A stretch of 16,624 bases of DNA, taken from contig DLCS01000203.1 in NCBI GenBank assembly GCA_002480735.1, forward strand, positions 1 through 16,624, in the 5' to 3' direction. The translations under genes and the position numbers were made by a program. The first letter of the stretch is position 1, and each line of letters opens with the position of its first letter. Source of the stretch: Bacillaceae bacterium UBA7792 (GTDB lineage Bacteria > Bacillota > Bacilli > Bacillales > Cytobacillaceae). The notes beneath the pieces were generated by a model. That model was not told where the DNA came from. It made no database searches and saw only the letters and a list, made by a program, of their open reading frames with translations. Below are positions 7,371 through 16,624 of the stretch, piece after piece.

Positions 7371-7550
7371 TTAAATTTTCTTTTGTTCTTCCTCTAAATC
7401 ATCATCCATAATCCCTTTTGTAGAACTCTTAAATTCTCGAAGGGATTGTCCGAAAGCTCTTCCGATTTCAGGTAACTTTTTAGGTCCAAAGATAATGAGG
7501 GCAAGTACAAGAATAATGATTAACCCTGGAATGCCAATATTTGATAGCAT
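7371..7550 (-). CDS. tatA: Twin-arginine translocase subunit TatA
   Basis: The small pore-forming component of the Tat pathway, which exports folded proteins. The 59-residue product has a short membrane helix ([15 protein letters not shown], about 7-21), the hallmark [14 protein letters not shown] hinge and start of the amphipathic helix (21-34), and a charged tail [13 protein letters not shown] 7550 was chosen because the protein then begins MLSNIG as TatA proteins do. A longer TTG start at 7598 would add 16 untypical residues. A GGAG lies about 10 bases upstream. No tatC is adjacent. A weak extended -10 (TGTTACAAT, 7691-7699) may give it its own promoter, but it is also the last gene before the operon terminator. 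The Tat-dependent catalytic subunit upstream is its obvious client. Confidence 0.93.
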
Positions 7551-7710
7551 TTCTCGACCACTCCTTTTGTATATCGCTTCAGCACCAATCGCTATCAAGC
7601 TTTTAACAGCTTGTACAACGCTGGTCAGGGTGCTTAGCTCATCTTAGTTTACCGCATCAAAAATTTTCATTACATATTCTATCCAACAACATTGTAACAC
7701 AGTTTACCAC

Positions 7711-8613
7711 CTATTGCGCAAAAAGTAGAGTTTTTTTCGTGCAACGGACACACTCCTCTACGCTATCAGACAATGCCTCAAAGGACTGTCCACAGGTTTG
7801 ACATGTCTTCGTTTGAATGTCAAATTTCCTTTCTTCGTATTGACGAACGGTCTCAGAAACGGAAATTGCTTTTTCTGGACAAATATCCTCGCATAATCGA
7901 CAAGCAGAACAGGCCTGTGCTGAAATAATAACATGTGAATTTGTGATTTGGATACAATTTTTATCACAGAGCTTTTGACACGCTTTACAGAGGGTGCATT
8001 TTCCTGTGTCCAAATAAATATCGGCGAATTGATAGTCCTGGTAATATTTAGATAAATCCAAATCCTTATGATTAAATCTCCATTTTGCTGGCGCCATTTC
8101 CTTCATTAGTGATTGTGTTTCTTCTTTCCAAGAAAAGAATAGCTCTCTGCGGGTATAGGTTTCTTCTTTGCGCTCAATTTTTTTATACTGAATGGACAAA
8201 GGAGCCATATCTAACTTCTTCAGGAGCTCATTCGTCTTCTCGATCGTCTCACTCCATGCTTCGCCTACGTTTTCCTCGGAAATAATGCCTTTTACACCTT
8301 TTTTAGCATAGACCAGCATTTCCTTCACCGAGGGAATCCTGTCCTTGTCTACCACTAGATGCTGCTGTAGGAATTCCCTTTTAGGAAAAATACCTGCCAC
8401 TGCCTGCACGGGACAAGCTGTAATGCACTTGCCGCATTCCATGCATTTCTTTTGATGAATAACAGGTGTCCCGCCTTTAAGTGTGATGGCTTCTGTTGGA
8501 CATATGTCCAAGCAGCTTGTACAGGTTGAACGGGGACTCTTATGGCGAGAACACGATGTCAAAATGCTATATTCGTAATCTAGACTCTCAATCCATTTGC
8601 TAAAAATCCCCAT
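7711..8613 (-). CDS. Polyferredoxin with four [4Fe-4S] motifs and a C-terminal zinc ribbon
   Basis: A probable electron carrier tied to the reductase. The 300-residue product has no signal peptide or membrane segment. Motif 1 is unusual: Cys21, then nine residues, then Cys31, Cys34 and Cys38-Pro. Motif 2 is standard (Cys57, 60, 63, 67-Pro). A middle region without cysteines (68-205) contains ETYTRRELFFSWKEE. Motif 3 (Cys206, 209, 212, 216, with an extra Cys220) and motif 4 (Cys235, 238, 241, 245-Pro) follow. A zinc-ribbon-like end has Cys271, 274, 288 and 291. ATG 8613 was chosen over GTG 8622 because AAGGAG lies eight bases upstream. It follows the anchor gene after a 127-base hairpin-bearing gap. 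I know no exact characterised homologue. Roles as an extra electron route or an assembly factor are both open. Confidence 0.85.
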   Translation of the reverse strand: MGIFSKWIESLDYEYSILTSCSRHKSPRSTCTSCLDICPTEAITLKGGTPVIHQKKCMECGKCITACPVQAVAGIFPKREFLQQHLVVDKDRIPSVKEMLVYAKKGVKGIISEENVGEAWSETIEKTNELLKKLDMAPLSIQYKKIERKEETYTRRELFFSWKEETQSLMKEMAPAKWRFNHKDLDLSKYYQDYQFADIYLDTGKCTLCKACQKLCDKNCIQITNSHVIISAQACSACRLCEDICPEKAISVSETVRQYEERKFDIQTKTCQTCGQSFEALSDSVEECVRCTKKTLLFAQ

Positions 8614-8637
8614 TTTCAACACTCCTTCTTTTTTGCC

Positions 8638-8706
8638 GCATCATGCGTATGGGTTCACTTCGTTGCTCGTACCGAGCAAAACACGTTCACTCCATACGCA
8701 TGATGC
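8638..8706. repeat. Large two-tier inverted repeat between dmsC and the polyferredoxin gene
   Basis: Perfect 15-base arms (GCATCATGCGTATGG at 8638-8652 and its complement at 8692-8706) enclose a second hairpin, TTGCTCG/CGAGCAA, with a three-base loop (8663-8679). A GTTCACT motif occurs twice inside (8653-8659 and about 8685-8690 in near form). Neither side has a T-run: the minus strand continues GGCAAAAAAG and the plus strand TAAGTTC. It is therefore not a standard terminator. It could be an mRNA-stabilising or processing structure between cistrons, or a dispersed palindromic repeat element. Confidence 0.8.
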
Positions 8707-8740
8707 TAAGTTCAATACTGAACAATATCAAAGACAGTAA

Positions 8741-9586
8741 TTAAGCTCCTAGTACATAGAATACATATCTACTCATACCTTCAGCTAAGAAAAGAACGAC
8801 TAATGCTACATAGGCAAATGTAAGAGAAACTTTTTTTGCACGCTCTAGAGATAAATAGCCAAGCACGCCTACTCCAAGAACCTCGATAATCCATCTTAAT
8901 GCTACAGTTGTTTGATAGCCTTCAAGTGAAGCGAAAGCGTTATGTCCTGCAATCATATTTACTTCTGGGATAGCTGTACCAAATAATGCGACACCTATTA
9001 GTTGAATAGCGAGCCCTGCTAAAGAAATGAAGAATGCACTCCTAACAACATTCTGTGCTAGTTCACTTTGATTTCCTTTTAATACCGGTACAAGAAGGCT
9101 AGCAGTTAGTACTGGGCCTAACACTAAAGCAGTTCCATAAAATGATGTGAATGTATTTATGGAGTGCCATCCGCTTACTAAGGATTTAGAGTAAATCGCA
9201 CCCATACAATAAATATCAACCAGTCCAACTACGGATGTGATAACTAGCAGAAGTAAGTTTACCTTTTTCTGTAAAAGAGCCAATCCCGCTGTTACACAAG
9301 TAGCCCCAATAAATGCACTGGTCACTAGTATTTCACGACTCATCCAAGAAGTGCCGACATTCCGAATCGCATTTAATGCATGAGATGGTGTTCCTAAGTG
9401 GGCAAATGAAGCAGCCAACCCTACAATTGAAAATCCTGCAATGACTAATAAAGGAAGCTTCATTGCTTTATAGGCTTGCTCTGTGCCAAGTTTCATCATT
9501 TTTTTATAAAAAATAGTTAGCATGAGGATACCGCCGATAGCTGCCTGCATACAAACGGTAAAGATTAATAATGCCCATTCATTCAT
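8741..9586 (-). CDS. dmsC: DMSO reductase-family membrane anchor subunit DmsC
   Basis: The integral membrane subunit that oxidises menaquinol and passes electrons to DmsB. The 281-residue product has about eight hydrophobic segments and almost no large soluble parts, with the family pattern of an N-terminal NEWALLIFTVCMQAAIGG helix and a GTPSHALNAIRN loop after helix 2. It fits the PF04976 DmsC type rather than the NrfD type, by general resemblance. ATG 9586 is preferred over ATG 9592 because GGGAGG (9595-9600) sits 8 bases from the former and only 2 from the latter. That ribosome-binding site directly abuts the dmsB stop at 9601, so the two are co-translated neighbours. Quinone-site residues cannot be named with confidence. 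Confidence 0.9.
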   Translation of the reverse strand: MNEWALLIFTVCMQAAIGGILMLTIFYKKMMKLGTEQAYKAMKLPLLVIAGFSIVGLAASFAHLGTPSHALNAIRNVGTSWMSREILVTSAFIGATCVTAGLALLQKKVNLLLLVITSVVGLVDIYCMGAIYSKSLVSGWHSINTFTSFYGTALVLGPVLTASLLVPVLKGNQSELAQNVVRSAFFISLAGLAIQLIGVALFGTAIPEVNMIAGHNAFASLEGYQTTVALRWIIEVLGVGVLGYLSLERAKKVSLTFAYVALVVLFLAEGMSRYVFYVLGA

Positions 9587-9600
9587 GATCATGACCTCCC

Positions 9601-10137
9601 TTATTTAGTATGGATAATTAGGTTTGGTTTTGTAATGCTTGAGGATGGAAGCCCTTTGATGTTTGCATTATCACCATGTTTCTTACGTAGTTCATCAATT
9701 GGTCCGAACTCAATGGCTCTCATAATACAGGATGAGACGCACACTGGGTCTTCCCCCTTCTCACGTAAATCTAAGCATGTATCGCATTTTGTCATTTTTC
9801 CGATTTCTTCATTATATTGCGGTGCTCCATATGGACAGTTCCATTCACAATAACGGCACCCGACGCATTTATCATGGTCAACTACAACGACGCCATCCTC
9901 TTCACGTTTGTGCATAGCAGTTGTTGGACATCCTTGTACACATCCTGGCTCATCGCAATGATTACAAGAAATAGATACATGATAGATTGATGGCTTTGGG
10001 AAGGTTCCTTCCTGAAAGTCATATACTCTGCGGTAGTTTCTTCCAATCTCTAAATCACTTTTATCCTTGCAGGCAACTGTACAGGTTTTACATCCCACAC
10101 ATTCTGCAACATTTATATAAAAACCCATTTGAGTCAT
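9601..10137 (-). CDS. dmsB: DMSO/selenate reductase-family iron-sulfur subunit DmsB
   Basis: The electron-transfer subunit between the membrane anchor and the catalytic subunit. Its 178 residues hold 16 cysteines in four [4Fe-4S] motifs: 13/16/19/23, 58/61/66/70, 91/94/97/101 and 118/121/133/137, with CxxxCP-type ends (GCP at 69-71, NCPYG at 100-104). The order and spacing are those of DmsB, with the typical CNHCDEPGCVQGCPTTAM stretch. It has no signal peptide, as expected for a partner exported by hitch-hiking on the Tat signal of DmsA. A strong AAAGGAGGG site precedes ATG 10137. The gene starts 15 bases after dmsA. Length is a little below the E. coli subunit (about 205). Confidence 0.96.
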   Translation of the reverse strand: MTQMGFYINVAECVGCKTCTVACKDKSDLEIGRNYRRVYDFQEGTFPKPSIYHVSISCNHCDEPGCVQGCPTTAMHKREEDGVVVVDHDKCVGCRYCEWNCPYGAPQYNEEIGKMTKCDTCLDLREKGEDPVCVSSCIMRAIEFGPIDELRKKHGDNANIKGLPSSSITKPNLIIHTK

Positions 10138-10152
10138 GATTCAAGCCCTCCT

Positions 10153-12729
10153 TTAATCAAACTTGATAATTCGCTGTGCCCATTTTGCATCATCTTCAAG
10201 TTGCTCTCCGTCCCACTTCTCCAAATTACAACGGGCTGTATTATATCCGGATGTACCTAATCCAGTCGGGACAAAACCAACAAGCATATTATCTGCCCCT
10301 CCTCTGTCTACTCCTGTTTCTTCATCTATATCAACCCATGCTCCATGTGGTAGGGCAATTGTTCCAGGCATTAATGTTTCAACAATTTTTGCTGGTCGAA
10401 TCGTTTTACCGTGTTCGTTAGACATAAGCACCGTTTCGCCTTCTTTAATTCCTAGTTTCTTTGCATCCTGAGCACTGATATAAACTGGATTTGGCCAAGC
10501 TTCACGGAGCTGTGGAACGTTATCAAAAGTACTATGTGAACGCCTTAAATAATGTGGATTAAATACTTGATATGGGTACTTTCCTTTTTTCTTCGTTTCC
10601 CAGTTTTCGAAAGTAGATTCATATCCCTCTGCCTTCGCCATATATTTTGGAATTGGAGGAATCTCTGTAAAGGCAGTCTTTGAAGCCTCATTTAGAGCTC
10701 TACAGTATATTTCAAACTTCCCGCTTTCACTGGAAACAGGATTCTCCTCTGGATTATCGATAAAATCCTTGTAGGCAATAAAGCCATAGTTATCGCCTGG
10801 TTTTCTAGGAATCTGATATATTCCTGTGTCAACAAATTCCTTCAATGGAATACGCCCTTGCTGAGGTGTTCCTTCTACTCCCCACTCCTTAATATCTTGG
10901 GCAGTAATGGTACAAAGCGGCTCATAATCCACTCCATTTTCTTTAACAACTTCACTTCCGGCAAGCTGATTGAAGTACATTTGCTTTTCTGAAATTGGAT
11001 ATACTTCATCTGGATTGGTTCCGAACTTCTTCAATAATTCTTTGGCGATTTCGATATCCGTCTTGGATTCATATAATGGATCAATAATTTTTGACCAATT
11101 GATTAAGATCTCTCTGTTTCCTCCTTTGACGGCACCTTCTGTTTCCCACTGAGTAGCAACCGGGAGGACAATATCCGAATACTTGGCATTCGTTGTTAGG
11201 GCATAAGCATTTGTCACAACAAACTCTACCTTACGATGTGCCTCTATCCCTCTTCCAATGCTGCTTCGGGTTTGTAAATGAGCATTGTAATTATGATAAA
11301 TAAACTGGATATCTACTTTTCTTTTCCCTTCACCTTTTTGAAGGAACTCTCCATTCAATACAGCATCCCAAATTTCATTTTCGTTCATTAGATTGTCTAC
11401 TGGATTATCGATAGAAGGAAGTCCAGCTCCTCCACCATTCAACAGCATTGGACCGTTGTTCCCAGCATACTCCCAACAGCTAACTCCTGTCATATTGCCA
11501 GAGCTTCCCATATGTCCTGTCATCATGCCAAGAGTTGAGAAGGTTTGTACCCATCCTTCTCCATTATTTATACGAGCAGGTGCCCAACCTGTTAATAATG
11601 CAACTCTTTCAGTACCGCCAATCTCACGGGCAAGAGAACGAATTCTACTAGGTTCAACACCACAAATTTCAGCAGCCCATTCTGGTGTTTTTGGTTGCCC
11701 ATCGTATGTTCCAAGAAGATAGTCTTTGAAATTGTCCTTTGGGTCTGCCCCCTCAGGCATATGGTCTTTATCAAAACCAATCGTATATTTATTTAAGAAA
11801 TCCCATTTCACCAATGGATTTGTTGCTGGATCATGCTCGTCTAGTAATGTATACATCATCCCAAGGGCAAGAGCATCGTCCGTTCCTGGTCTAATTGGAA
11901 CCCAATCTGCATCAAACACACTTGCAGAATCGGTATACAATGGATCAATCGTAATAAAGCGTGCTCCAGCTTTTTTCGCTTGTAAATAGTTGTAGGTCGG
12001 ACTTCCCATTGTGCTCCAAGCTGGATTGGCTCCCCATAACACAATCAATTGTGAATTACGAAGATCTAGGCGATCATTAATCCCATTAACGTAAAGACCT
12101 TCCCCAACTCCAAGCATTTCATACGTATACAGCCATGCTCCCCAAGAGATCGTTCCAGTACTTTCTGTACAACCACCTTGTGTTTTGAACACTTTCCCTA
12201 TGTCAGCTCCACCAGATACATAGATGGACTCATTTCCGTATTTTTTCTTAATTCTATTTGTCTCAGAAACGATATGATCGAGAGCTTCGTCCCAAGAAAT
12301 TCTCACCCACTGGTCTTTGCCTCGAAGCTCTTTCTTTCCACCACCAGGCTCCCAGTTCTTACGTTTCATTGGATATTTCAAACGGTCTGCATTAAACACT
12401 TGCTTCCGTTGAGAACGTCCTCTCAAGCAGCCTCGCTGCTGTGGAAAATCAGGACTATCTGGATGTGTATCGTCTGTTTTTTGACGAATGACAACCCCAT
12501 CCTTCACCAAGACCTTATTTAAGCAACGGCTTCCACAGTTATGCCAGCAAGCAGCTGTTTTCCAAACACCTTCTCCTCCGCTATCTTCCATACCAATATT
12601 TGCTTCAGCCTTTGCTACAAGACCCCTACTCACTGGAATGGCCGCAGTCGCAGCAATTGCTGAAGACCAGCCAATAAAAGATCTTCGGGACATTTTAAAT
12701 TCTTGTGCTTTCTTAAATAGATCAAACAT
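10153..12729 (-). CDS. dmsA: DMSO/selenate reductase-family molybdopterin catalytic subunit DmsA, Tat-exported
   Basis: The catalytic subunit of a terminal reductase binding the bis-MGD molybdenum cofactor. Its 858 residues begin with a Tat signal (SRRSFIG at 14-20, then a hydrophobic core and ALVAK/AEA-like end). A [4Fe-4S] site follows (Cys61, 65, 69 in CWHNCGSRC and Cys101 in RGCLRGRSQRKQ), then NADRLKYPMKR (113-123) and the three molybdopterin domains. The dinucleotide-binding domain occupies about residues 725-850, with NPHYLRRSHSTFDN and VGFVPTGLGTSGYN. By alignment of the GGxxxxxxGxxS region with E. coli DmsA, Ser195 in TGTISWGA is the likely molybdenum ligand. AAAGGAG lies seven bases before ATG 12729. 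The substrate is unknown: DMSO, TMAO, selenate and sulfur oxyanions are all possible for this family. The gene follows the chaperone gene by 25 bases. Confidence 0.93.
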   Translation of the reverse strand: MFDLFKKAQEFKMSRRSFIGWSSAIAATAAIPVSRGLVAKAEANIGMEDSGGEGVWKTAACWHNCGSRCLNKVLVKDGVVIRQKTDDTHPDSPDFPQQRGCLRGRSQRKQVFNADRLKYPMKRKNWEPGGGKKELRGKDQWVRISWDEALDHIVSETNRIKKKYGNESIYVSGGADIGKVFKTQGGCTESTGTISWGAWLYTYEMLGVGEGLYVNGINDRLDLRNSQLIVLWGANPAWSTMGSPTYNYLQAKKAGARFITIDPLYTDSASVFDADWVPIRPGTDDALALGMMYTLLDEHDPATNPLVKWDFLNKYTIGFDKDHMPEGADPKDNFKDYLLGTYDGQPKTPEWAAEICGVEPSRIRSLAREIGGTERVALLTGWAPARINNGEGWVQTFSTLGMMTGHMGSSGNMTGVSCWEYAGNNGPMLLNGGGAGLPSIDNPVDNLMNENEIWDAVLNGEFLQKGEGKRKVDIQFIYHNYNAHLQTRSSIGRGIEAHRKVEFVVTNAYALTTNAKYSDIVLPVATQWETEGAVKGGNREILINWSKIIDPLYESKTDIEIAKELLKKFGTNPDEVYPISEKQMYFNQLAGSEVVKENGVDYEPLCTITAQDIKEWGVEGTPQQGRIPLKEFVDTGIYQIPRKPGDNYGFIAYKDFIDNPEENPVSSESGKFEIYCRALNEASKTAFTEIPPIPKYMAKAEGYESTFENWETKKKGKYPYQVFNPHYLRRSHSTFDNVPQLREAWPNPVYISAQDAKKLGIKEGETVLMSNEHGKTIRPAKIVETLMPGTIALPHGAWVDIDEETGVDRGGADNMLVGFVPTGLGTSGYNTARCNLEKWDGEQLEDDAKWAQRIIKFD

Positions 12730-12754
12730 CGTAATTCTCCTTTCATTAGGAAAG

Positions 12755-13456
12755 TTATTGAATAATTTCTATATTCAAGAGTTCTTTTAGAACCTGTGAA
12801 TCCATTTGAAGATAATAATTTAACACCTTGGCCATCCCTTTATAAAATTGGGTATCAGCATTTTCTATAATTTTCTTGCTGAATTCTGGAACAAAAACGA
12901 GTAAATGATTATCCATAAACTGTTTTTGCTCAGCAAGTAAGTATGTGACTTCTTTGATATTTCCTTCTTCAATAGACTGAATACAGAGCTTATTTAAGTG
13001 GTAGAGAAAATCTAATTCTAATCCGATATGGTCATCTGCTTCGACATGCCGTTCAGCAATTTCAAACCCAAAATGCTTATATTTGTTTCTTACATCTATC
13101 GTGCATTGCTGAAAGAGAATGGGCTCCTTCTGAACGTAGACAGATTCCCAAGGAGGGGCTGGTAATTCAAAGGGACCTACCATCATTCTCGTATAATCCC
13201 AATGCAGGTCATCAAAGTGACTCTGGTTATGAACAACATCAAACCTCTCAAAATACTCCTTTATCTCATTAATCCCATTTTGAATTTCTTGCGAATCTTC
13301 TTTAAATGGGAACATCTCAGCCATGTTTTGCAGCCTAAAGATTTTTATATATTCTTGTGAAGGCTCTTCAATAAAGAATCTCCGCAAAATGTCATAGGCG
13401 TATTCCCTAGCAAAAAGAAGATCAGCTATTTCCTGCAAGGCGATTTGAGCTCTCAT
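12755..13456 (-). CDS. TorD/DmsD-type molybdoenzyme chaperone
   Basis: A cytoplasmic chaperone expected to bind the Tat signal of the catalytic subunit and hold it until cofactor insertion. The 233-residue, mainly helical product has the two family signatures: YTRMMVGPFELPAPPWESVY (88-107) and EADDHIGLELDFLYHL (139-154). ATG 13456 has a strong AGGAGGAGAG site just upstream, which lies inside the last codons of the radical SAM gene. The two genes overlap by 35 bases and the catalytic subunit follows 25 bases later. This placement between an unknown radical SAM protein and the enzyme suggests that all three act in enzyme assembly. Family membership is clear; the exact partner is inferred from context. 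Confidence 0.92.
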   Translation of the reverse strand: MRAQIALQEIADLLFAREYAYDILRRFFIEEPSQEYIKIFRLQNMAEMFPFKEDSQEIQNGINEIKEYFERFDVVHNQSHFDDLHWDYTRMMVGPFELPAPPWESVYVQKEPILFQQCTIDVRNKYKHFGFEIAERHVEADDHIGLELDFLYHLNKLCIQSIEEGNIKEVTYLLAEQKQFMDNHLLVFVPEFSKKIIENADTQFYKGMAKVLNYYLQMDSQVLKELLNIEIIQ

Positions 13457-14798
13457 AAGTCTCTCCTCCTGTTATATTTATAAGCTCTTCCATTTTGAAT
13501 AGATCTGGTGTCGTCCAATCAAGGCCAATTTCACGAATAAGTTGTTCTCCATCTTCCCTTTCCGCTACATTGGAGCTGATTGCAATTTCGATATTTTTGT
13601 TTCTCAAGTGCTTTATAGCATGAATAGAGAATTGAATGAAATCGTACTGGTCATTTTCGGTATAATGAATCTCATTTTTTTCTAGAAGTAATTTCACTTT
13701 TTTTCGTTCAGTGCCAAAAACCTTAGCTGTTTTAAAAAAGTAATCGATATCAGAAAAAGTATAAGTGCGATCGAGTGCCCCACCGTAATTTTGCTGATAG
13801 ACCTGCCCCGTATGCTTATTTTCTAAAGAGCAATAATGAACACCCAGATTTAAGTTCTCTTTCAAAGCAAACTCTACAAGTTCTAGACATTCTTTTTCAC
13901 TTTCTGCTACTGCAAGCCCTCCTGCATACCAATAGTTGTAGTACATTTCGTATGGAGGATATTTAAGCTGAAAGCCTCTTTCTTTAAAGGCTTCAGCATT
14001 GCCAAGTGGGAAGCAAAATTCCAACAAGTTAATGCCGAATATATCAATTTTGTCCAATTTAAGGAGGAGTACCTTCATCTCATTTAAGGTTCCAGGAATA
14101 ACAGGCATTTCAACCATAATGTTCGGAATATATTTCTTCGCAAGCTCAATTCGACCAAGTGTAAAGTTGATGCGTTTATACGAATCGTCCATTTTGATGC
14201 TGAAGCGAATTTCATCTAACCCTGATTTTTGAAGCTTCTCTAATAACTCTTCATCTAATAGATCTCCTGTTGTATAGAGCCTTGTGTAAGCCTCGGGTAT
14301 CAAGTCGTTAGCAGTTTCGAAAAACTCTACCGTCTCATCCTTAAAAAGGAGTGGCTCCCCACCCGTAAGTGCCAGATGCTTAAGCTTGACACCGCTATTG
14401 ACCAGCTCCAAAAGTTCCTTTTTTATGTCTTTTTGTTGATTCTTATAAAAGGTGTAATCATCCTGATTTGGATTAAAGCAAAAATAACAACTACGGTGAC
14501 ATTTTAACGAGGTATAGGTTGTGTAGCTTCCTGTTCCCGTTTGACATGCCTCGCAAGCACTGGATATTCTACCTGTGACAACGCTTTTCTTGTTATTGCG
14601 AATCGTTGCACCCGCATTTTCTAATTTCCTTAACTTCAACTCTTTTTCAGAATCAAGAGCTTTTACTTCAAAAGGAAGGCCAAACGTCTCTATATGTTCG
14701 ATCGTCCTTCTTTCAATATTTGTGTATATTTGAGCATATTGCTGAAAGACTTTGTTTTTTATCGTTGTGACATTATCCATTGTGATTTTTCGAAGCAT
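13422..14798 (-). CDS. Radical SAM protein of unknown function, first gene of the reductase operon
   Basis: A radical S-adenosylmethionine enzyme by motif: Cys100-x3-Cys104-x2-Cys107 (CHRSCYFC) for the catalytic [4Fe-4S] cluster and GGEP (146-149) for SAM binding, in a 458-residue protein. Before the cluster lies CEACQTGTGS (82-91), a second cysteine pair. This CxxCxxG-then-CxxxCxxC layout resembles the uncharacterised COG2108-type proteins related to pyruvate-formate-lyase activating enzymes, from memory. Further cysteines occur in LEFCFPLG and VHYCSLENKHTG. ATG 14798 was chosen over GTG 14831 because AAAGGA sits nine bases upstream. It overlaps the chaperone gene by 35 bases and is the promoter-proximal cistron, below a Fnr/Rex-like site. 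A role in maturing the reductase is inference only. Confidence 0.85.
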   Translation of the reverse strand: MLRKITMDNVTTIKNKVFQQYAQIYTNIERRTIEHIETFGLPFEVKALDSEKELKLRKLENAGATIRNNKKSVVTGRISSACEACQTGTGSYTTYTSLKCHRSCYFCFNPNQDDYTFYKNQQKDIKKELLELVNSGVKLKHLALTGGEPLLFKDETVEFFETANDLIPEAYTRLYTTGDLLDEELLEKLQKSGLDEIRFSIKMDDSYKRINFTLGRIELAKKYIPNIMVEMPVIPGTLNEMKVLLLKLDKIDIFGINLLEFCFPLGNAEAFKERGFQLKYPPYEMYYNYWYAGGLAVAESEKECLELVEFALKENLNLGVHYCSLENKHTGQVYQQNYGGALDRTYTFSDIDYFFKTAKVFGTERKKVKLLLEKNEIHYTENDQYDFIQFSIHAIKHLRNKNIEIAISSNVAEREDGEQLIREIGLDWTTPDLFKMEELINITGGETYESSNRLAGNS

Positions 14799-14827: not shown

Positions 14828-14860
14828 TCACAATAAACTATATTGTGAAACTCATCACAA
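14828..14860 (-). promoter_or_regulatory. Fnr/Rex-type operator upstream of the radical SAM-dms operon
   Basis: TTGTGAAACTCATCACAA (14843-14860) contains a perfect TGTGA-N6-TCACA, the Bacillus Fnr consensus. It also differs from the Rex pattern TTGTGAA-N4-TTCACAA at one base. A third half-site upstream, TCACAATA (14828-14835), forms a second inverted repeat with TATTGTGA (14841-14848), so half-sites are shared. The Fnr box centre is 41.5 bases before position 14810, but the -10 there (TTATTA) is poor. A good minus-strand TATAAT (revcomp at 14877-14882) would instead place the box just downstream of the start, which suits repression. Confidence 0.6.
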
Positions 14861-15045: not shown

Positions 15046-16272
15046 ATGGGCAATTTGGAAGAAAACCGCCTTGTTCCTGATATATTCAATAGTCTGCTAG
15101 TAGTTTCTGCTGAAGAAGGATTAAGTGGGATTTCAAATGAGCTGTCTAGGCTCTTATCCCTCCCGGTCATTGTTACCGATACTTTTTATAATGTACTTGC
15201 TACATCCATTGACAACGACCCATTGGAAATCGTCGTTTCTACCCATTTCGAAAGACAGCAAAATACAGCATATTTTAAATGTACGCTAGACATATTAGGA
15301 GAAAGCTATGAAAGTTTTGGCCTTCCAATTCGTCAACGGGAGCAAAACCATGGCTATTTATTTTTTTTGAATAAGCACTCAGAACATCATATTCTTGAAA
15401 AATATGAAGCACTTAATCAGTTTAGCGCTTCATTATGTATGCTTAATTTAAAACAGCTCAACGATCTTAAAGAAGAAAAACATCGCTTTAAGGATGCTTT
15501 TCTATACGACATTCTTTATGGAAACTTTAAAAATAAAGAAGATATTATTTCCTATGGTGCCATTTGGAAATGGGAGTTAGACCAGCCTCATATGGTGATT
15601 GTTTTTTCTATCATAGAATACAATCATTATTCAGCCGATCGACAATTAATTGAAACTCTTCTATATATAATAGATAAAACTCTCACTCAGCACGGAATTG
15701 AGCCAATCACAATTAAGAAACAAAATGAAGTCATTGCTATCATCCCAGCAAGTGAGAAAACAAGCTTTTCTAGTAAAAGCAAGCTAATTGATTTCCTTCA
15801 TTATCTCATCGATGAGACTAAAGAAACGAGCTTACTAAATCGAGTAGCTTGTGGAGTCGGACAAATATACGATAACCCATTGGAATTATACAGGAGCTAT
15901 CAGGAATCAAAGGTTGCTTATGAGTTAGGCTTGTTATTAAAAATAGAAATACCATTTTTTCATAATCTAGGACTTGAACGAGTGTTATACAAACATGATT
16001 TACAGGATCTGAAGGAATTTTATCAACATATTGTCGGAGACTTAGTGAAGTACGACCAATTAAACGGAAGTGAACTGATGTATACTCTAGAAAGCTTCGC
16101 TCACCATCAGTTTGATCTAAAGCAAACTTCTGAAACGATTTTCCTCCATCGCAATACATTAAGATATCGAATCAAAAAGATCGAGGAAATCTTAAATATC
16201 AAATTAGATGACTTTCATCACCGCCTAAATATAACCGCCGCCTTCAAAATCAAACAGCTGCACAAAATTTAA
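15046..16272 (+). CDS. PucR/CdaR-family transcriptional regulator
   Basis: A DNA-binding regulator, probably responding to a small molecule. The 408-residue product has an N-terminal sensor-like region (about 15-130) that starts ELSRLLSLPVIVTDTFYNVLATS, as in GAF-type PucR relatives. A middle GGDEF-like CdaR region (about 150-300) includes GVGQIYDNPLELYRSYQESK. The C-terminal PucR-type helix-turn-helix contains SETIFLHRNTLRYRIKKIEE (362-381). AAAGGGTG precedes ATG 15046. It faces away from the dms operon and is followed after 16 bases by a molybdopterin oxidoreductase gene, so it most likely controls that gene and perhaps itself. Whether it also acts on the divergent operon is open. Family members respond to purine or sugar-acid pathway signals; no ligand can be named here. 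Confidence 0.88.
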   Translation: MGNLEENRLVPDIFNSLLVVSAEEGLSGISNELSRLLSLPVIVTDTFYNVLATSIDNDPLEIVVSTHFERQQNTAYFKCTLDILGESYESFGLPIRQREQNHGYLFFLNKHSEHHILEKYEALNQFSASLCMLNLKQLNDLKEEKHRFKDAFLYDILYGNFKNKEDIISYGAIWKWELDQPHMVIVFSIIEYNHYSADRQLIETLLYIIDKTLTQHGIEPITIKKQNEVIAIIPASEKTSFSSKSKLIDFLHYLIDETKETSLLNRVACGVGQIYDNPLELYRSYQESKVAYELGLLLKIEIPFFHNLGLERVLYKHDLQDLKEFYQHIVGDLVKYDQLNGSELMYTLESFAHHQFDLKQTSETIFLHRNTLRYRIKKIEEILNIKLDDFHHRLNITAAFKIKQLHKI

Positions 16273-16288
16273 AGTAGGTGATCTGTCG

Positions 16289-16624
16289 ATGAAAATAACT
16301 CGCAATGTATGCCCAAGAAACTGCTTTGGAACCTGCAGCATTCTCTCCTATGTGGAAGATGATCAATTGCTAAAGATAACGGGTGATCCAAAGCATGGCT
16401 TTACCGGAGGACATTTGTGTGCCAAGGGCTATGCCTATACCCAATACGTGGATAACCCTTTGCGTTTAAAATATCCGATGATCCAAGCATCAAGGGGCTC
16501 TGGGAATTGGAAAAGGATTTCATGGGACGAGGCCTATACCATTATCGCTGAGAAAATGGTTGAGCTCTACCGCCGCTACGGTTCTAATCTAGCAAGTGGA
16601 TTTAATAAATTTTCAGGAAACTTA
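16289..16624 (+). CDS. Cytoplasmic molybdopterin oxidoreductase, N-terminal part (truncated by window end)
   Basis: The first 112 codons of a second DMSO-reductase-superfamily enzyme, running off the window without a stop. It starts directly with its [4Fe-4S] domain: Cys8, Cys12 and Cys16 in VCPRNCFGTCS and Cys44 in HLCAKGYA. NPLRLKYPM (57-65) and WKRISWDEAYTII (73-85) follow, all standard for this superfamily. There is no Tat signal, so the enzyme should stay in the cytoplasm, unlike the exported catalytic subunit encoded divergently. AGGTG lies upstream of ATG 16289, and the gene begins 16 bases after the regulator stop, which indicates an operon. The substrate cannot be judged from this fragment. 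The CPRNC-type start resembles formate-dehydrogenase-like and YoaE-like oxidoreductases, a loose comparison from memory. Confidence 0.88.
   Translation, partial: MKITRNVCPRNCFGTCSILSYVEDDQLLKITGDPKHGFTGGHLCAKGYAYTQYVDNPLRLKYPMIQASRGSGNWKRISWDEAYTIIAEKMVELYRRYGSNLASGFNKFSGNL

Follow-up and report, generated by a model that had tools for sequence, protein, structure and literature searches.

A gene for a radical S-adenosylmethionine (SAM) protein heads a dimethyl sulfoxide (DMSO)-reductase-type operon in Bacillaceae bacterium UBA7792, on the 16,624-nucleotide stretch of contig DLCS01000203.1 analysed here and called the window below. As far as our searches go, this protein, rSAM, is the conserved radical SAM partner of one branch of DmsA-type catalytic subunits and of a second group in Chloroflexota, a pairing undescribed in the open-access literature. 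We consider it fairly probable that rSAM is a dedicated maturation enzyme for that branch, named clade R here, and for the Chloroflexota group. We observed the gene order, the linkage and the co-occurrence, as well as a promoter box that recurs, conserved cysteines and a residue signature; from these we infer the catalysis, its timing and its target.

As the earlier note had proposed from the letters alone, seven genes follow one another on the minus strand from 14798 to 7371, in the order rSAM, TorD-type chaperone, DmsA, DmsB, DmsC, polyferredoxin and TatA. rSAM (13422..14798; Pfam Radical_SAM at 70.4 bits, cutoff 29.5) has 458 residues from its ATG start, beyond which the open reading frame holds an in-frame GTG at 14831. 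Its gene shares a 35-nt overlap with that of the TorD/DmsD-like chaperone (12755..13456; Pfam Nitrate_red_del, 102 bits). The clade-R DmsA-like catalytic subunit comes next (10153..12729, 858 residues; Pfam Molybdopterin, 158 bits), then the four-cluster ferredoxin subunit DmsB (9601..10137; Pfam Fer4_11, 93 bits), which matches the NCBIfam equivalog TIGR02951 for the DMSO/selenate reductase B subunit at 244 bits against a cutoff of 214.1, and the membrane anchor DmsC (8741..9592; Pfam DmsC, 101 bits). The DmsA-like protein has the DMSO-reductase-type layout, with a serine at the molybdenum-ligand position and a signal for twin-arginine translocation (Tat), whose motif SRRSFIG spans residues 14-20 (12670..12690). 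With 513 bits against the TIGR02166 cutoff of 777.7 (NCBIfam), it is a divergent relative of the DMSO/selenate reductase A subunits.

Genomes of 84,980 species were scanned and gave 243 relatives, and the best 80 of the 243 define the loci analysed, each fetched with flanks of up to 10 kb; a stricter subset of 54 loci has flanks of 9 kb or more on either side. They lie in Bacillaceae, in Desulfosporosinus and other Peptococcaceae-type metagenome-assembled genomes, in Lachnospiraceae, in Anaerolineae and other Chloroflexota, and in the Enterobacterales Providencia, Morganella, Serratia and Leminorella. TorD is found at 67 of the 80 loci, DmsA at 64, both at 61 and a polyferredoxin-like gene at 51, the calls for DmsA (150 phmmer bits or more against the window protein) and polyferredoxin (20 bits or more) being loose enough that other molybdenum enzymes and ferredoxins may have entered those counts. 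In the stricter subset, DmsA is present at 50 loci, TorD at 48 and both at 48. The four loci with neither (L056, L063, L064 and L074) belong to genomes that encode a DmsA elsewhere, each with the motif C-W-H-N-C. Among 45 of the 80 loci, picked outside Bacillaceae except L070 and with up to 17 candidates scored per genome, 43 genomes hold a TIGR02166-type DmsA at E <= 1e-60; in G526 and G531 none was found at that threshold.

The earlier note had let its idea depend on linkage of rSAM with TorD-DmsA pairs, and this linkage is conserved in Bacillota, Chloroflexota and Enterobacterales rather than absent. The promoter-proximal position that it had stressed holds for the window operon but is not general: Enterobacterales read fdx-rSAM-TorD-DmsABC (fdx, polyferredoxin gene) or rSAM-TorD-DmsABC, so that fdx may come first, and in Chloroflexota the order is often dmsABC-X-torD-fdx-rSAM, with rSAM last. 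Between DmsC and TorD, a protein of about 1000 residues and of unassigned kind (L030, 3529-6684) recurs in many Chloroflexota loci. In L025 and L049, both from Enterobacterales, dmsA is in two frames. In L019 (Bacillus sp. V3-13), rSAM is shortened to 339 residues and dmsB is split in two, next to an uninterrupted classic DmsA.

DmsA-type subunits hold the FS0 cluster through a C-x3-C-x3-C...C motif, which in the window protein reads C61-W-H-N-C65-G-S-R-C69 (12523..12549). On a tree of 126 representative DmsAs, built with the FS0 columns excluded, clade R (proteins of about 860 residues, the window DmsA among them) is set apart by a fully supported branch and holds 71 rows. Of these, 69 come from rSAM genomes and carry an aromatic residue right after the first FS0 cysteine; G146 and G426, both without rSAM, supply the other two. 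The second group linked to rSAM, in Chloroflexota, reads CYHNC (e.g. L031, L032, L034, L037, L038) and is separate from clade R.

Co-occurrence was assessed in genomes not picked for rSAM: 193 of the window's own family, 299 of its phylum, 119 of the order of Providencia and 130 of the class Anaerolineae. Pooled over 740 distinct genomes, rSAM is present in 39 of 42 with a clade-R DmsA versus 3 of 698 without (Fisher p 9e-58, kinship uncorrected). In the own family, rSAM and clade-R DmsA each occur in 28 genomes and together in 27, the mismatches being G146, with the DmsA only, and G010, with only the short rSAM whose coordinates are those of L019. Across the phylum, rSAM is found in 7 genomes and clade-R DmsA in G000, G205, G306, G410, G475 and G426. 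Both rSAM genomes of the Providencia order (G513 and G539) have a clade-R DmsA, while a TIGR02166 match of some kind occurs in 48 of the 119; all 6 rSAM genomes of Anaerolineae have a clade-R DmsA as well. These counts rest on at most four DmsA candidates scored per genome in the family, three in the phylum and seven in the order and class, so a DmsA may have been missed; weaker matches in the Providencia order (e.g. G540, G584, G562, G653, G622, G638, G604) and two G742 fragments in the class were left unread, and absences in both sets are soft because completeness is not given for their genomes.

A single rSAM may serve several DmsAs. The genome of the window has clade-R DmsA on C167 and C252 and one rSAM, G098 combines a single rSAM with four DmsAs of clade R, and in G306 the two genes lie 1.6 Mb apart. 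An enzyme acting branch-wide would fit this distribution better than one confined to a single pathway.

The rSAM protein is a member of the Radical SAM superfamily, with CxxxCxxC (C100, C104, C107) and G146-G147-E148 inside the Radical_SAM domain. Both are invariant over 75 aligned rows, as are four additional cysteines, C82, C85, C262 and C323. Its predicted structure (confidence score pLDDT 93.4) is nearest in fold to viperin, NifB, the pyruvate formate-lyase (PFL)-activating enzyme and maturases of ribosomally synthesized and post-translationally modified peptides (RiPPs); HydE also matched. No named family that we tried accommodates it: scores are 46 against a cutoff of 180 bits for viperin (NF038283), 19.3 against 400 for the putative metalloenzyme maturase TIGR04311 and 23.6 against 445 for the cyclophane-forming peptide maturase YhhB (NF041707). 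The C-terminal domain was considered as a NapD-like binder of signal peptides; its model is confident, has no significant match in the PDB, and NapD is absent from the matches listed.

To locate residues that go with rSAM, we compared 56 clade-R and 11 other rSAM-linked DmsAs with 10 classic ones, after L121, L022_13 and five outgroup rows had been removed by hand. Columns common to both rSAM-linked groups and missing from the classic proteins include W62 (Trp/Tyr), H63, Q107, W199 (Trp/Tyr) and M403, among others. W199, the second aromatic column, is four residues past S195 (12133..12147 for the pair), which aligns with the E. coli DmsA serine and is the presumed molybdenum ligand. In a larger comparison of 192 proteins, from which those below 700 profile bits were excluded, Trp or Tyr follows the first FS0 cysteine in 124 of 162 DmsAs from rSAM genomes and in 2 of 28 from rSAM-free genomes (1 of 27 before L361 of G664 was added). 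Three E. coli proteins, tallied apart because the rSAM search did not cover E. coli, have no aromatic there, and E. coli-type DmsAs inside rSAM genomes read CTVNC, CLVNC or SSFDC. At the DNA level, the pattern C-[WY]-H-N-C matched in 6 of the 299 genomes of the phylum; 5 matches are real, all 5 in genomes with rSAM, and the rSAM genomes G363 and G469 of this set gave no match. The clade-R DmsA of rSAM-free G426 reads CIYDC, which we count in favour of the association. The CAHNC of rSAM-free G778 is uninformative, its nearest relatives from rSAM genomes reading CPAHNC.

Two variations of the loop were observed besides. The first FS0 cysteine is lost in DmsA-type proteins of the rSAM genomes L146, L174 and L022 (GAHNC, GSHNC and APHNC), and four Chloroflexota members of clade R (L223, L228, L214, L259) have one additional residue in the motif (CWHNCGGQRC, CWHNCGGHRC).

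A perfect match to TGTGA-N6-TCACA at 14844-14859 stands between the rSAM operon and the PucR-type regulator, within an FNR/CRP-type palindrome, TTGTGAAACTCATCACAA (14843..14860, by pattern match), that separates the divergent operons. In Bacillus, regulators of the FNR/CRP type recognize this sequence, so that an FNR-type regulator probably turns on the Bacillaceae operon when oxygen is absent. Among 22 Bacillaceae-type loci (the window, L002-L019, L057, L062 and L070), 17 have the box upstream of rSAM with no more than one mismatch, and in 10 of them it is perfect; at L007, L018, L057, L062 and L070 it was not found.

Several observations weigh against a dedicated maturation enzyme for clade R. 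The clade-R DmsAs of G664 (Anaerolineae, reading CWHNC) and G426, and the CWFDC protein of G146, come without an rSAM match; conversely, in G363 rSAM adjoins a non-clade-R DmsA reading GAHNC, and rSAM occurs without a clade-R match in G469 and G010. The FS0 aromatic is lacking in 38 of the 162 DmsAs of rSAM genomes, and the DmsAs of L154 and L155 adjoin rSAM with CVHNC and CIHNC. The DmsA tree shows only 4 changes of the aromatic state. In 3 independent pairs with a difference in this state, rSAM agrees in direction in 1.5 on average, opposes it in 0 and is equal in 1.5; in 11 pairs with a difference in rSAM, the aromatic agrees in direction in 1.5 and is equal in 9.5. Since the aromatic tracks the family tree this closely, it is a lead and not proof. 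Finally, the FNR-like box is missing upstream of rSAM in all six Enterobacterales loci tested.

In the mechanism that we propose, rSAM would be active in the cytoplasm, in the company of TorD, and before Tat exports the folded enzyme. Its substrate would be either the catalytic subunit in its apo form or the cofactor during loading. rSAM might work on the FS0 loop or the pterin before DmsA has completed folding. In NarG, according to a maturation review, FS0 goes in ahead of the cofactor (PMC10609526); the same order is given for DmsABC by the title of its reference 95. As a protein target, the loop W62-H63-N64 between the first two FS0 cysteines suggests itself most, with W199 near Ser195, although taken by itself this assignment is unlikely; the bis-molybdopterin guanine dinucleotide (bis-MGD) cofactor as the target instead is possible, if rather doubtful. 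In the most specific version, which is quite unlikely, rSAM would modify W62 or crosslink it, with N64 or W199, between FS0 and the molybdenum cofactor, to give a built-in modified aromatic cofactor before Tat export.

Other roles for rSAM leave DmsA itself untouched. It might supply a pathway ending in the reductase with a small molecule, whether as acceptor, as electron carrier or as precursor. Such a role would suit the resemblance to a catabolic locus in many Bacillota, where a PucR/CdaR regulator and a second molybdenum oxidoreductase adjoin the operon (the latter, mo2N, in 23 of the 80 loci), and some of the nearest fold relatives (viperin, NifB, PFL-activating enzyme, RiPP maturases) act on small molecules. 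We nevertheless think it an unlikely explanation: by eye, no further biosynthetic gene recurs in the gene tables of the loci, the constant part in Enterobacterales is rSAM-TorD-DmsABC, often with fdx, and one rSAM goes with several DmsA paralogs. The patchy occurrence of rSAM (28/193, 7/299, 2/119 and 6/130 genomes in the four samples) makes horizontal spread likely, and would also be expected of an unrelated gene that merely travels with the operon. Neutral hitchhiking of this kind is highly improbable, as the association persists though gene order varies between phyla, and the DmsA branch is present even in genomes where rSAM is unlinked.

A different partner for rSAM, namely the polyferredoxin, TorD or the divergent second molybdenum oxidoreductase, is suggested by L064, where rSAM adjoins DmsB2-Mo2-PucR and no DmsABC is present, and by L030, where the fdx and rSAM genes overlap. 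It is distinctly improbable: the second oxidoreductase is found only in the 23 loci mentioned, TorD is known as general to DMSO reductases (PMC4464133), and the polyferredoxin family occurs in rSAM-free genomes too and is missing from 29 of the 80 rSAM loci (21 of the 54 with long flanks). In rSAM-free G103 and G135 the same family follows DmsB in DmsAB operons, and the component of a special system that the earlier note saw in it looks, from these gene neighbourhoods, like a general accessory rather than an rSAM-specific one, perhaps for cluster assembly or electron supply.

The window polyferredoxin (7711..8622, minus strand; several Pfam Fer4 families) has a NapF-like layout of four clusters with TRR or SRR stretches. 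As NapF proper it was rejected (TIGR00402, 35.6 against 102.2 bits). Its last cysteines (CQTC...CVRC) resemble, by eye, the zinc ribbon that the earlier note had named, with no family match. TatA follows (7371..7598, minus strand; Pfam TatA_B_E, 76 bits), its likely start being internal to the open reading frame, near 7547. The operon likely ends, where a terminator had been predicted, at the minus-strand hairpin GAGTATGTTC-TATCAT-GAACATGCTC-TTTTT with its T-run (7357-7327), between the TatA gene and a glycerate kinase gene; a simple scanner run on the window did not report this hairpin.

On the other side, a divergent PucR/CdaR-type regulator and then a second molybdenum oxidoreductase, of CPRNC type, occupy 15046-16624, where the contig end cuts the locus; with a second DmsB they form a trio that recurs beside rSAM in many Bacillota. 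The molybdate ABC transporter genes modB and modA (529-2005, over NCBIfam cutoffs) lie on the same strand as the operon, about 5 kb past it. Elsewhere in the genome (contigs C150 and C181 of G000), one in-frame TGA lies in each of two molybdenum oxidoreductase frames, which might be explained if these encode selenocysteine formate dehydrogenases.

In the account of PMC10609526, DMSO-reductase-type enzymes mature by binding a chaperone, receiving FS0 and being loaded with the cofactor. A dedicated radical enzyme for clade R would give the maturation of an entire branch of respiratory enzymes one more step, and could account for such enzymes failing in foreign hosts. The FS0 loop gives a residue-level lead: a 2025 preprint on Salmonella paralogs (PMC12636705) puts two residues against the pterin, an arginine and an asparagine that lies between the first and second FS0 cysteines. 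We found no description of the rSAM-DmsA pairing in the open-access literature, though subscription papers may hold one, and the word "radical" is absent from the review and from a survey of NarJ-family chaperone operons (PMC4464133). The undescribed maturation route put forward earlier thus gains from the conserved linkage, the clade-R co-occurrence and the lack of an open-access description, and loses the role of the polyferredoxin and a general promoter-proximal position.

Among known systems, E. coli DmsABC, YnfEFGH with DmsD, and srnABCD of Enterobacter cloacae share with the window operon a Tat-exported molybdenum subunit, a four-cluster B subunit, a membrane anchor and a TorD-type chaperone. 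The srn operon is under FNR control, and its paper does not contain the word "radical" (PMC12724226). The stretches examined carry no annotated rSAM gene next to dmsABC or ynfEFGH of E. coli, whose FS0 loops read CTVNC or CSVNC, in contrast to CWHNC in the window. NapF is likewise a cytoplasmic four-cluster ferredoxin that accompanies an exported molybdenum enzyme, needed for in vitro rebuilding of the NapA cluster according to PMC10609526. HydE, NifB and the putative TIGR04311 maturases also pair one radical SAM protein with one metalloenzyme; they differ in that none of their sequence families scores over cutoff here and that the partner here is a DMSO-reductase branch. YhhB and the triceptide cyclophane maturases have a radical SAM core in common with the window protein, and W-x-N is one motif crosslinked by cyclophane-forming peptide maturases. 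Their substrates are short peptides, whereas the supposed substrate of rSAM would be a large enzyme.

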